Below are positions 29,254 to 33,232 of a stretch of 64,000 nt of DNA, piece after piece. Within the stretch, counting starts at the first letter, position 1; every line of letters begins with the position of its first letter. The notes under the pieces were generated by a model, which did not search any database, was not told where the DNA came from, and saw only the letters and a program-made list of their open reading frames with translations. Origin of the DNA: Arthrobacter sp. ISL-28 (GTDB lineage Bacteria; Actinomycetota; Actinomycetes; Actinomycetales; Micrococcaceae); assembly GCF_018613875.1 (NCBI RefSeq), contig NZ_JAGGPJ010000016.1, positions 1 to 64,000 on the forward strand. Direction: 5' to 3'. The position numbers were made by a program, and so were the translations under genes.

Positions 29254-29733
29254 ATGGGAATCGGCGACAGCATAGGCAAAGCAGCGGAGAACGCCATGGA
29301 GGATCTGGCGGGGACGTCCAAACCTACAGATGACGCCCATGTGCCGGAGCCCGGCACCCGGGACGACGACGTTCAGGTCCACTCCTCCATCAGCGAAGGC
29401 TCCAACGCAATGGATAACGACGGCGGACCGGGCACCTCAGGCGCCGCGTCCGGCAGTCCAGAAACGCCCGGCCCGGAAACAGGCGGCTCAGAAGCGCGCG
29501 GCTCGGACACGGCCGGCTCTGAAACGGGCGCCGCGGACACGGCCGGCCCGGATACAGGCAGCGCAGAAGCGGGCGGCACAACGGATTCAGGAGGCATTGG
29601 CGCGGCGGAGGGATCGGACCTTCCCCGGGATGTCGCCGGTTCGGCCGGACTCCCCGACCCCGATCCCGACGAACTCCGGGCCGACCCTTCGGAAGGCGAC
29701 CAGGACCCAACCACCGGTCTCGGCCGCAGTTAG
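29254..29733 (+). CDS. Small acidic Gly/Ser/Thr/Pro-rich protein
   Basis: A 159-residue protein beginning MGIGDSIGKAAENAMEDLAG, reminiscent of short CsbD-like or stress-protein N-termini, then a long repetitive acidic region in which a 5-6 residue unit of the type (P/S)ETGGS/DTAGS recurs about ten times. gaaggagcaag precedes the ATG. There are no membrane segments. It resembles the acidic protein at 25283-25840 in composition. Function unknown. Confidence 0.6.
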   Translation: MGIGDSIGKAAENAMEDLAGTSKPTDDAHVPEPGTRDDDVQVHSSISEGSNAMDNDGGPGTSGAASGSPETPGPETGGSEARGSDTAGSETGAADTAGPDTGSAEAGGTTDSGGIGAAEGSDLPRDVAGSAGLPDPDPDELRADPSEGDQDPTTGLGRS

Positions 29734-30313: not shown

Positions 30314-31756
30314 GTGGACGTGATCACCGTGTCGGATTTTATGGATGCCGCGCTGATGATGCTGGGTCCGTTCCTTTTCGTGGCTGTCTCGGTTATTGGC
30401 CTCCGGATGGCCGGATACTGGTGGAGCTTCATTTTCTTCTGGCAGCGCTACCGGCGGCGTGAGGCTGTGACCACGGCTGGGCTGCGCAAACTGGACGTGC
30501 CGTTCGTCAAGATCCAGATCACCACCCGCGGCTCGGCGGGCAGTACCGCCGTCGTCCTGCGGGGCATCCGTAACGTCATCGAGCTTGGCCGTGAAGACCC
30601 CGCCTTCTACCGGCGGTTCCTGTCAGTGGAAGTGGTGACCGAATCCTTTGAGCAGGCGGAGACGGTCCGGAGTGTCTTCCACGGCGCTCCCATCGCCGTC
30701 GACGCCCTGGTGATCCCGGCCAGCTACGAAACCCCCGCCGGCACCGGCCTCAAGGCGCGGGGCCTGCATTATGCCGTGGAAAACCGGCGAGGGCTGTGGA
30801 ACAGGAAACCGGGCCGCACTTTCATCGTCCACTACGACGAGGAGAGCGTTATGGTTCCCGATGAGCTCCGCAAGCTGATCAGAGTCCTCTCCACCACAAC
30901 AAAGATGATCCTCGAAGGCCCCATCTACTACCCCTTGGAATACCTTCACGCGTCCGTGCTTTGCCGGTCGATGGAGGCAAGCCGCCCGATGGGCTGCTAT
31001 GAGTGCCGCCAGGTGATGGAATCAGGCGTCCCGTTCCACCTGCACGGTTCCAACCTCGTGGTGGAGGAAGCCCTTGAGAACGAACTGGGCTGGGACATCG
31101 GCTCCCTGGACGGCCAGCCGTTCATTGCCGAGGACTATGTGTTCGGAATGAACGCGTTTACCAAGTACGGCCGCAATATTTTCGACTGGCACGGCTGCCT
31201 CATGCTGGAACAGGCTCCCTTCTCGTTGCACAGCGCCTTCAAACAGCGCTACCGCTGGATCTTTGGCGTGCTGCAGGGGATCACCGCCGCGGCCCGGAGA
31301 CCGCGCTTCCGGGCCCTTCCACTGCGGACCAGGACAGGATTGTTGTGGGGCACACGGTTCCGCATCGCCACCTTCGCACTCGGCGCCATCGTGGGGACGC
31401 TTTCGCTACTGGTGGTTCCGATCTTCGTAGCCCGCGCTATCACGGCCCTGATGCTCGACCAACCTCCGCTGATCCCCGGGGCGGCCAACCTCTGGCTGTC
31501 CGTGGTCGGCGCCATGTGGCTCGGTTCGGTGTTCGTTGGTGCGTGGCACAATGTGGCCGACGCGGGGCTGGACAGATGGGAGCGGGCAGCGGAAATAGCC
31601 CGGTCGGTCGCGGTTGCCCCCATAGCAGGAATCTGCGAAAGTTCTGCGGCGCTTTGGGCTGTTGCCAACTGGATCTCCGGAAAACGCAACGTGCAGTGGA
31701 CGCCAACCCCCAAGACGAAGCAGGCAGACCTCGCGAGCGTCAGGAACGGTGATTGA
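30314..31756 (+). CDS. Family 2 glycosyltransferase (membrane polysaccharide synthase)
   Basis: A 480-residue processive-type GT2. An N-terminal hydrophobic helix (MMLGPFLFVAVSVIGL) leads into the catalytic domain, with HYDEES near 173 (metal Asp), AEDYVFGMNAF near 270 (general base) and QRYRWIFGVLQG near 312, the Q-x-x-R-W motif of processive synthases. Further hydrophobic segments follow at about 345-400 and 425-455. The start is uncertain: GTG at 30314 and 30320 and ATG at 30341 are all possible. It begins a three-gene operon with a small membrane protein and a GH26-like hydrolase. The polymer is unknown; the hydrolase hints at a mannan-like or beta-linked glycan. Confidence 0.85.
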   Translation: MDVITVSDFMDAALMMLGPFLFVAVSVIGLRMAGYWWSFIFFWQRYRRREAVTTAGLRKLDVPFVKIQITTRGSAGSTAVVLRGIRNVIELGREDPAFYRRFLSVEVVTESFEQAETVRSVFHGAPIAVDALVIPASYETPAGTGLKARGLHYAVENRRGLWNRKPGRTFIVHYDEESVMVPDELRKLIRVLSTTTKMILEGPIYYPLEYLHASVLCRSMEASRPMGCYECRQVMESGVPFHLHGSNLVVEEALENELGWDIGSLDGQPFIAEDYVFGMNAFTKYGRNIFDWHGCLMLEQAPFSLHSAFKQRYRWIFGVLQGITAAARRPRFRALPLRTRTGLLWGTRFRIATFALGAIVGTLSLLVVPIFVARAITALMLDQPPLIPGAANLWLSVVGAMWLGSVFVGAWHNVADAGLDRWERAAEIARSVAVAPIAGICESSAALWAVANWISGKRNVQWTPTPKTKQADLASVRNGD

Positions 31757-31757
31757 C

Positions 31758-32078
31758 ATGGAACCAACCGCAACAGTCGCCGTCGGGGACGGCTTGACGC
31801 CAAAAACGGCCCAAACAAGGGCGGCCGTTGCCAGCGAGGAACTGCCCATGCCGACGGCCCAGGGCGGCGCCAGCCGGTGCAGTCGCCTGGTGTGCCTGAC
31901 CCTGTTGTTGGCCGCGGTTGCCATGGCCTCTGTCTTCATCGGTGTACCCCTGGCCGCAGCCCTGCATGCGGTGGTGTATCAGCCCCTGCTGGGTATCATC
32001 TTCGCAGCCGCGATCACTGCTGAATTAGCGCTGATGGTGGCGTCCGTCATCCTGAGGACCGAGAAGAGCGTACGGTGA
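31758..32078 (+). CDS. Small membrane protein of the GT2-GH26 operon
   Basis: A 106-residue protein beginning 1 bp after the synthase stop (MEPTATVAVGDGL). It has a polar N-terminal 45 residues and two hydrophobic helices, LVCLTLLLAAVAMASVFIGV and LLGIIFAAAITAELALMVAS. I recognise no family. The tight spacing on both sides (1 bp before, 4-bp overlap after) indicates a dedicated accessory subunit of the polysaccharide system. Confidence 0.75.
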   Translation: MEPTATVAVGDGLTPKTAQTRAAVASEELPMPTAQGGASRCSRLVCLTLLLAAVAMASVFIGVPLAAALHAVVYQPLLGIIFAAAITAELALMVASVILRTEKSVR

Positions 32079-33232
32079 ACCGCGTGCGGAACCGGGAAAA
32101 CCCAGCCCGGAAGGTGGTTGTCTGCATGGTGCTCCTTGCGGTCGCAACCGCTTCCCTGGCCTTTGCATTCACCGAGCGGCACGTCCCGCTGCCCGTGCCC
32201 GAGCACGGGGAGGCCTACTATGGCGTCCAGCTGGACTGGCAGCACGATTCCGCGGACGGCTATGCATCCCGGCTGGGGGCGACGCCCGCAGTGTACGGAC
32301 GCTATGTCAGCTTCCCGCTGACACCGGAGGAGGAAAAGGAAGTGGGCGAGGAGATATCCCAGCTGGCTGACGCCCATTCCGCCATGATGTTGACGCTGGA
32401 GCCTTGGAACGGCCTCGCGTCCATCACGCCTGAAGTGCTTGCGGACTTCTCGCAGGACCTGACGGCGTGGACCCGCAAGGGTGTCCCGGTTATGGTGCGC
32501 TTCGCCCATGAAATGAACGGATCATGGTATCCATGGGGCCAGCAGCCGGAGCTCTTCATCGAAAAATTCCGCCAGGTGGCAGCAGCCGCCCATGCAGTCC
32601 CCGGATCAACTATGCTGTGGTCCCCGAACGAAGGCGGAGGCTACCCGTTCCCCGGCGGGGCACACGAGGCGAAGCCCGCGGCCGCGGCATTCTCTGTCCT
32701 GGACACCAACGGCGACGGCAGGCTCTCCATGGACGATGACCCCTACGGGCCCTATTGGCCAGGCGACGCTGCCGTGGACTGGGTGGGACTCACGCTCTAT
32801 CACTACGGCGATGTCCACCCGTGGGGCGAAAACGAGATTCCTGCCCCGGGCAAGCTGGCCGCGAAAATCACCGGAACATACAGGACCGGCTTCGTGGATG
32901 AAACAGCCGTCCCGGACTTTTATGCCGCCTACGCGGTAGGGCACGCCAAGCCGTTCGCCATTTCCGAGACCGCCGCCTTCTACAACACGGCCCGCACAGA
33001 CGGCGCGGCAGCGCTGGAGATCAAATCTGCCTGGTGGAAGCAGCTGTTCGATGCCGGATTCGAAACACAATTCCCGCAGATGAAACTGGCCATGTGGTTC
33101 GAGTACACCAAAGAGGAAACGGAACCCAGCAACCAGGTCATCGACTGGAGGGCCACCGCGGATCCGGCCGTCCTGGCGCCGTTCCGGGCAGCGGTCCCTT
33201 CGCGGTTCATCATGGCGCCGCTGGGAGGGTAG
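32075..33232 (+). CDS. GH26-like secreted/anchored glycoside hydrolase
   Basis: A 385-residue protein with a hydrophobic N-terminal helix (VVVCMVLLAVATASLAFAF) acting as signal or membrane anchor. The barrel resembles GH26 beta-mannanases: FAHEMNGSWYPWG near 145 holds the likely acid/base Glu, and the ISETAAFY region near 295 the nucleophile candidate. DTNGDGRLSMDDD near 210 is a textbook calcium-binding (dockerin/EF-hand) loop inserted before WPGDAAVDWVGLTLYHYGD. The GTG start overlaps the upstream stop (GTGA). Its presence with a GT2 synthase parallels cellulose- or PNAG-type systems in which a hydrolase edits or releases the polymer. Confidence 0.82.
   Translation: MNRVRNRENPARKVVVCMVLLAVATASLAFAFTERHVPLPVPEHGEAYYGVQLDWQHDSADGYASRLGATPAVYGRYVSFPLTPEEEKEVGEEISQLADAHSAMMLTLEPWNGLASITPEVLADFSQDLTAWTRKGVPVMVRFAHEMNGSWYPWGQQPELFIEKFRQVAAAAHAVPGSTMLWSPNEGGGYPFPGGAHEAKPAAAAFSVLDTNGDGRLSMDDDPYGPYWPGDAAVDWVGLTLYHYGDVHPWGENEIPAPGKLAAKITGTYRTGFVDETAVPDFYAAYAVGHAKPFAISETAAFYNTARTDGAAALEIKSAWWKQLFDAGFETQFPQMKLAMWFEYTKEETEPSNQVIDWRATADPAVLAPFRAAVPSRFIMAPLGG

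Follow-up and report, generated by a model that had tools for sequence, protein, structure and literature searches.

A conserved unit of a glycosyltransferase, a small membrane protein and a glycoside hydrolase in Arthrobacter sp. ISL-28, a candidate synthase of a beta-mannan-type polymer

Introduction

Three consecutive genes in a 64,000-nucleotide stretch of DNA from Arthrobacter sp. ISL-28 (contig NZ_JAGGPJ010000016.1, positions 1 to 64,000; hereafter the window), part of a genome of 5.0 Mb, raise the question of whether they belong together and what they might make. They code for a glycosyltransferase of family 2 (GT2), a two-helix membrane protein of 106 residues and a glycoside hydrolase of family 26 (GH26), which the first-pass annotation had described as translationally linked at 30314-33232 and as parallel to synthase-hydrolase exopolysaccharide systems. 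The linkage is confirmed, with a one-base gap at the first junction and a 4-bp GTGA overlap at the second (Table 1), and the parallel is strengthened by the replacement of GH26 by a family 113 hydrolase (GH113) in related loci and by the synthase-like predicted fold of the GT2. The three genes almost certainly form a conserved and portable functional unit, and the GT2 with the small protein is proposed, at a probability of roughly 0.55, to be the synthase of a beta-mannosyl polymer that the hydrolase trims. A synthase-type polymer as the product is likely, while its mannan type is probable to a lesser degree.

One source counts five synthase-dependent bacterial exopolysaccharides, namely cellulose, acetylated cellulose, poly-N-acetylglucosamine (PNAG), alginate and Pel (PMC7112194). 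A compact mannan-type system would, if real, add one to these five, offer structural studies a minimal synthase of two proteins, and account for some of the mannanases of bacteria that may not eat plant mannan. No earlier description of the trio was found in the open-licence PMC literature, and one source states that, to its authors' knowledge, no characterised Wzx/Wzy cluster has a GH26 (PMC13390465).

Table 1. Position of the three genes and their junctions in the window
Feature	Position	Strand	Details
GT2 glycosyltransferase, putative synthase catalytic subunit	30314..31756	+	480 aa, ~4 membrane helices, GTG start; PF13632
Two-helix membrane protein, putative synthase partner subunit	31758..32078	+	106 aa; translation, no Pfam/NCBIfam name
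GH26 hydrolase with N-terminal hydrophobic segment (anchor or signal peptide)	32075..33232	+	385 aa, GTG start; PF02156
Junction of GT2 stop TGA, one base and small-protein start ATG	31754..31760	+	Sequence
Junction of small-protein stop and GH26 start, 4-bp GTGA overlap	32075..32078	+	Sequence

Conservation of the unit

Close homologues of the GT2 (at least 55% identity) are patchily distributed in Actinomycetota and Chloroflexota. A scan of named genomes returned 27 GT2 loci, 16 close and 11 distant, and the former make up, together with the window, L014 and L067-L069, the 21 close loci considered here (L011, L012 and L013 coincide with L024, L022 and L032 and were counted once). The GT2 and the small protein are linked: the latter is present in 21/21 close loci, adjacent to the GT2 in 20 and after the hydrolase in L031, and lies directly 3' of the GT2 in all 16 actinomycete loci and directly 5' in four Ktedonobacteria. 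The small protein is followed by GH26 in 10 of the 16 actinomycete loci (window, L014, L019, L020, L021, L024, L025, L026, L028 and L032), while in 5/5 Ktedonobacteria loci the gene after the GT2 is a GH113 (PF22612; 111.7, 103.4 and 103.1 bits in the three scanned as proteins, 98.5 and 94 in the other two by genome search) that replaces it, and two hydrolase families occupy the same place beside the GT2. The unit has overlapping genes in the window, L067 and L068. For the co-occurrence check suggested by the first-pass annotation, the small protein is conserved with the GT2 throughout and with GH26 in part. The three-gene system of that annotation is retained as a core unit of GT2 and small protein, since the hydrolase is dispensable, being absent in four and truncated in one of the actinomycete loci (the hydrolase status of L036, whose contig ends there, is outside the count).

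The trio is a unit and not an inherited neighbourhood, as the flanks otherwise share almost nothing. Specifically, an all-against-all blastp comparison (E 1e-8) of the open reading frames (ORFs) of 18 loci and 16 kb of the window, with L014 and L032 not included and several loci short, found as families present in at least three loci GT2, GH26, GH113, the small protein, which was recognised in four loci at this cut-off, and one extra gene of three Ktedonobacteria. An L036 ORF that fell into the GH26 group was taken as an artefact, joined via an 872-aa L025 frame that crosses the GT2 gene in another reading frame. In a tree of 24 GT2s, a 100/100 branch splits 17 unit-bearing rows from 7 distant rows, and midpoint rooting places the GH113-linked rows, from Chloroflexota, near the base of the unit clade, the GH26-linked rows being all actinomycetes. 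The distant clade (L033, L034 and L037-L045; 36-42% identity among the rows aligned) was set aside as a member of the family because of the 100/100 branch, with 7 of its 11 loci in the tree, and the lack of any match to small protein or GH26; specifically, the models of these two gave nothing at E 0.05 in the 11 distant loci, where some sequences end soon after the GT2.

The GT2 is rare in the genomes searched. At 1e-10, it occurs in 9/245 genomes of the window's bacterial family, its own included, four others being 63-66% identical and the rest at most 40%; the nearest named relatives are those of Arthrobacter sp. ISL-5 and B6, at 86% identity. A phylum-wide draw at 1e-30 returned one genome in 396, its own, and at 1e-20 the GT2 was found in 2/112 genomes of the family of the Blastococcus locus, the known locus included. 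The class of the Ktedonobacteria locus has it in 5/47 genomes. The gene is split over two frames in 4/21 close loci (L035, L036, L068 and L069), and a tblastn search for mobile carriage gave no match of the window GT2 in plasmid or phage collections.

The small two-helix protein

The small protein belongs to a putative helper-protein family without a name in the databases searched (Pfam, NCBIfam). The absence of a recognised family in the first-pass annotation was borne out in the window, where the protein has no match in Pfam and none of the three proteins has an NCBIfam match over cut-off, and the search for a family name among the other small proteins returned scattered weak matches, except for PilZ in L036. 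The window protein has hydrophobic segments at residues 45-63 and 80-98, and the alignment of 19 members, which leaves out L020 and L031, has P64, L65 and T101 invariant and the pattern [YF][IVL]x[VILM]PL in 19/19; the L031 form deviates at the first position, and the pattern occurs in 26 of the 331 short ORFs from these loci, the small proteins themselves being among the 331. Compared with Arthrobacter ISL-5, the ratio of nonsynonymous to synonymous substitution (dN/dS) is 0.21/0.44 for the small protein, 0.08/0.45 for the GT2 and 0.07/0.34 for GH26, indicating a weaker constraint on the small protein than on either neighbour. This constraint, together with the recurrence across two phyla, makes the small ORF look like a real gene.

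The first models recognised the small protein at E 0.05 or better in most close loci. In L011 (= L024) the profile found it where the single window protein did not, its copies in L027 and L030 escaped the first model and were identified from their position, helices and motif, and those of L067-L069 gave weak scores (E 0.003 to 0.024). The L031 copy is part of a 305-aa protein after the hydrolase and scores 33.9 bits with the 19-member model, and the L020 ORF has an in-frame stop at codon 13 counted from the first ATG. Applied to the 245 genomes, the 19-member model gave values below 1e-20 in five only, which are exactly the five with a close GT2; because those five are in the model, the informative part is the lack of a comparable score in the other 240, where the next best value is 6e-7, inside a 474-aa frame, and in all 41/245 genomes pass 0.01. 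By eye, the small protein of an Acidimicrobiaceae metagenome-assembled genome (L027:7401-8464) has a long VapB-antitoxin-like tail and is followed by a PIN-domain-like gene.

Two fusions favour a role of the small protein as a synthase subunit. The L036 copy extends into a PilZ domain (25.7 bits against a cut-off of 22.5; RSSER and DLSVGG seen by eye), whereas Pfam finds no PilZ in the window proteins; PilZ is the cyclic di-GMP (c-di-GMP)-sensing domain of cellulose and alginate synthases (PMC8461298). The search for further PilZ fusions in the class of L036 ended with one GT2-bearing genome in 249 at 1e-20, that of L036 itself. The L031 copy is fused to a hairpin that shares 34-44% identity with the N-terminal membrane region of long GH113-linked GT2s (E 3e-13 for L163, 9e-11 for L165, 9e-8 for L164 and 3e-6 for L166). 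These GT2s are a second type, found in four Ktedonobacteria, of 534-684 aa as called and with an extra N-terminal helix, whose genes overlap or abut GH113 (the genomes with both are G659, G665, G667 and G682); the family model did not find the small protein in L163-L166 (best E 0.33). Blastococcus has a further GT2 with a longer N-terminus, divergent beside GH26.

The GT2 and its predicted fold

The window GT2 matches PF13632 in Pfam over cut-off (2.2e-17), has no PilZ or TIGR03030 match in Pfam and NCBIfam, and by curated models is neither BcsA nor NfrB. A match to a named synthase, which would have counted against the first-pass annotation, was not found: NCBIfam gave nothing and the PDB sequence search no glycosyltransferase, with the GT2 profile finding nothing at E 1 and the single window sequence a lone receptor match at chance level. 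The MshEN c-di-GMP domain was absent among the Pfam and NCBIfam matches of the GT2s scanned. In 21 aligned rows, H173, D175-S178, E273-D274, Q311-R312 and R314-W315 are invariant, so that the Q(Q/R)xRW motif of processive GT2 synthases is present and unchanged; D175 and D274 of the D,D,D series are among the invariant residues, its first position being apparently Glu110, nearly invariant in the same rows.

The AlphaFold model of the GT2 (predicted local distance difference test, pLDDT, 89; predicted template modelling score, pTM, 0.88) and hydropathy give about four membrane helices. Its predicted fold resembles those of cellulose and hyaluronan synthases: VIA-align ranks Escherichia coli BcsA 9b8v at Z 23.4 (391 aligned residues, root-mean-square deviation, rmsd, 5.3), second the archaeal mannosyltransferase 6yv7 at Z 22.5 (326/346 residues, rmsd 4.5), and gives hyaluronan synthase 8smp Z 20.4 (392 aligned, rmsd 5.1); the top Foldseek matches are cellulose, chitin and hyaluronan synthases, at TM-scores no higher than 0.5. 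The label of a processive-type enzyme that we infer draws on the QxxRW motif and on this modelled fold.

The hydrolases

The window GH26 matches PF02156 at 9.7e-7 (28.9 bits, cut-off 20.2). Its Glu146 aligns with Glu109 of the family-26 lichenase CtLic26, as counted on the alignment, and Glu146 and Glu298 (in ISET), which we take to be the acid/base and the nucleophile, are invariant in 9/9 rows. A plausible reading of its one hydrophobic N-terminal segment (residues 14-32) is a membrane anchor; a cleaved signal peptide is also possible, since the segment is single and the window protein has no lipobox, which the Blastococcus copy has. The best of five AlphaFold models has pLDDT 79 and pTM 0.82 (59-68 in the other four). 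Reading the substrate from the fold was rejected, as xylanases, lichenases and mannanases are within 1.3 Z of each other (best VIA-align Z 22.9, 22.0 and 21.6, respectively).

GH26 relatives are commoner than the unit (43/245 genomes at 1e-10), although scores above 650 bits to the GH26 query are limited to the window and three unit-bearing genomes, and in its own genome the query matches itself alone at E 0.001. At 26 of the other GH26 loci, no GT2 of the unit's family was found within ~1.5 kb. In L129 (1964-6643), a GH26 protein is divergent from a cellulose-synthase-like GT2 (PF03552, 80 bits), a different GH26-synthase pairing, and in Modestobacter (L023:2076-3400) the GH26 is truncated shortly before a large gene that by eye reads like a conjugative relaxase.

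Regarding GH113, the glutamates of the L031 enzyme align, as counted on the alignment, with residues 151 and 231 of the endo-beta-1,4-mannanase 4cd6, presumably its catalytic residues. Of 20 genomes with a strong GH113 (89 bits or more), five have it beside the close GT2 and four beside the longer GT2. GH113 is described as mannan-specific, four of its five clades having an assigned activity (PMC9032380).

Proposed mechanism and alternatives

The GT2 and the 106-aa protein would constitute a membrane-embedded polysaccharide synthase. In the cytoplasm, the GT2 would polymerise a nucleotide-activated sugar, most probably building a beta-1,4-mannosyl backbone out of GDP-mannose; the chain would cross the membrane via a channel to whose formation or gating the small protein's two helices contribute; and outside the membrane the hydrolase, GH26 here and GH113 in Chloroflexota, would cut the emerging chain to set its length or release it. 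A hydrolase whose gene adjoins that of a synthase often acts on the synthase's product, GH26 includes mannanases, and the only shared activities of GH26 and GH113 that we know of are on beta-mannans, which makes a beta-1,4-mannosyl backbone the most economical product; the replacement of GH26 by GH113 gives a direct, testable prediction of the linkage. Single-chain hyaluronan synthases have six membrane helices, a number that the roughly four of the GT2 and the two of its partner may add up to. Sugar, processivity, channel role and trimming, and a control by c-di-GMP that the PilZ fusion suggests for one lineage, are what we infer from these comparisons.

Rather unlikely is a GT2 that works as a non-processive beta-mannosyltransferase, placing one or a few sugars onto a lipid or glycan like PcManGT, the 6yv7 protein, with a hydrolase that recycles or edits the product. 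The alignment with this membrane mannosyltransferase (326/346 residues, Z 22.5) and the just ~4 GT2 membrane helices agree with it, but Q311, R312, R314 and W315 of QxxRW are invariant in the 21 rows, the match to BcsA and hyaluronan synthases is near full-length, the hydrolase families have endo-acting members that suggest a polymer substrate, and a dedicated membrane partner is known from synthases. The GT2 may also resemble the animal egghead beta-1,4-mannosyltransferase. That the hydrolase serves feeding on outside mannan and stands beside the GT2 by chance is hardly credible: GH26 and GH113 do occur elsewhere in these lineages without a nearby GT2 of the unit's family, and Cellulomonas marina has six GH26 matches, but an intact hydrolase is adjacent in 15/20 testable loci whose neighbourhoods otherwise share nothing in at least three, the genes overlap in the window, L067 and L068, and the hydrolase pairing is repeated with the second GT2 type. 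Another beta-linked polymer is very improbable: NfrB (NF008411) is the top NCBIfam match of the L067 GT2, but at 16.6 bits, far below the cut-off of 1170, with no NF008411 match in the window GT2 and no MshEN among the matches of the GT2s scanned, and no GH113 or GH26 is known to us to cleave a polymer of this kind. An example would be a polymer built on N-acetylmannosamine, the sugar suggested for the glycan of NfrB (PMC8669472).

The same synthase architecture could also make a beta-glucan, mixed-linkage or beta-1,4, with a lichenase-type GH26. The nearest PDB sequence relatives of the GH26 are lichenases, another GH26 protein of the same bacterial family adjoins a cellulose-synthase-like GT2 (G050, L129), and a GT2-type synthase of mixed-linkage glucan is known from a Gram-positive bacterium (PMC10374906); this product is nonetheless unlikely, as the window synthase has neither a PilZ domain nor a cellulose-synthase family match and the same place is held in 5/5 Chloroflexota loci by GH113, to which the available text of a survey assigns only mannan activities (PMC9032380).

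Several findings weigh against a beta-mannosyl polymer synthase whose product the hydrolase trims. Mannanase, lichenase and xylanase are not told apart by the GH26 fold, and by sequence the enzyme's best PDB matches are lichenases; the hydrolase is missing from L022, L027, L029 and L035 and is truncated in L023. In Ktedonobacteria, GH113 is frequent (over cut-off in 33/47 genomes), and 11 of the 20 strong cases have no GT2-model match at E <0.01 within ~1.5 kb (best 0.025), so the swap could reflect local availability; moreover, clade-5 GH113, located near GT2 in Bacteroidota, had no mannanase activity (PMC9032380). Of the 19 small proteins scanned, PilZ is found in that of L036 alone, a locus with a frame-split GT2, and the Blastococcus GT2 N-terminus shows no recognisable likeness to the L031 hairpin (E 0.42). 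Lastly, a transfer of single sugars is possible because 6yv7 is a mannosyltransferase reported to act in N-glycan synthesis, with three membrane helices.

Comparison with known systems

The candidate mannan-type synthase shares features with several known systems. With BcsA-BcsB and BcsZ it has in common the predicted catalytic fold (Z 23.4) and the pairing of synthase and hydrolase, BcsZ being a cellulase paired with cellulose synthase; unlike BcsA, the window GT2 has no PilZ or TIGR03030, no BcsB-like family recurs in the flanks, and the hydrolase family differs. To our knowledge, PcManGT has no partner protein. This Pyrobaculum calidifontis enzyme is matched structurally over nearly its whole length, while differing in its three membrane helices and its reported N-glycan role (PMC10569066).

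The trio would work by analogy with PgaCD/IcaAD, where a GT2 needs a small membrane partner, with no homology implied, PgaD and IcaD themselves being non-homologous (PMC7112194, PMC8461298). It differs in that the flanks compared in 19 loci have no recurring deacetylase-like family, the window trio having no deacetylase gene of the PgaB/IcaB kind, and in that its hydrolase is GH26 or GH113; no PgaD match was found among 25 of 41 families listed for 19 small proteins, nor for 7 members at E 0.05. For want of a recurring deacetylase-like family, the trio is not assigned to PgaCD/IcaAD. Alginate Alg8-Alg44 likewise pairs a GT2 with a second membrane protein, which can bear PilZ (here in L036 only), although the trio's partner has two helices and Alg44 one (PMC8461298), and no further gene recurs with the trio in at least three loci, bar one in three Ktedonobacteria. 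Bacteroidota clade-5 GH113 enzymes are encoded near GT2s, some of them mannosyltransferase-like, and a biofilm or storage polymer has been suggested for them; in contrast to the trio, no small partner protein is mentioned in the available text of that survey, and the enzymes were inactive in assays (PMC9032380).

Neighbouring genes and mobility

A promoter scan found none, and a scan for terminator-like sites gave 7 versus a mean of 3.0 in shuffles, with none on the + strand 3' of GH26. Upstream on the same strand, the ORF at 29254-29733 codes for an acidic low-complexity protein rich in Gly, Ser, Thr and Glu, which does not recur in at least three of the loci compared. The extra gene of Ktedonobacteria (488 aa; L067:4048-5514, - strand) lies after GH113 and is also present in L068 and L069; the L067 copy matches no family of Pfam or NCBIfam, and its PDB match is at chance level.

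Tentatively, the trio can be seen as a horizontally moving cassette of Actinomycetota and Chloroflexota and as a sixth synthase-dependent system, for beta-mannan or glucomannan, in which the small subunit would supply the missing channel helices to a minimal GT2 and act as a plug-in site for signals such as c-di-GMP.

In the distant clade, the GT2s of L033 (3745-6946) and L034 (7791-9964) adjoin genes that by eye are phage- or mobile-element-like. Lastly, those of L038, L039 and L041 (6001-7380), from Gulosibacter, Haematomicrobium and Propionibacterium, are near-identical, with end branches of 0.01-0.02, which suggests a recent transfer between families.

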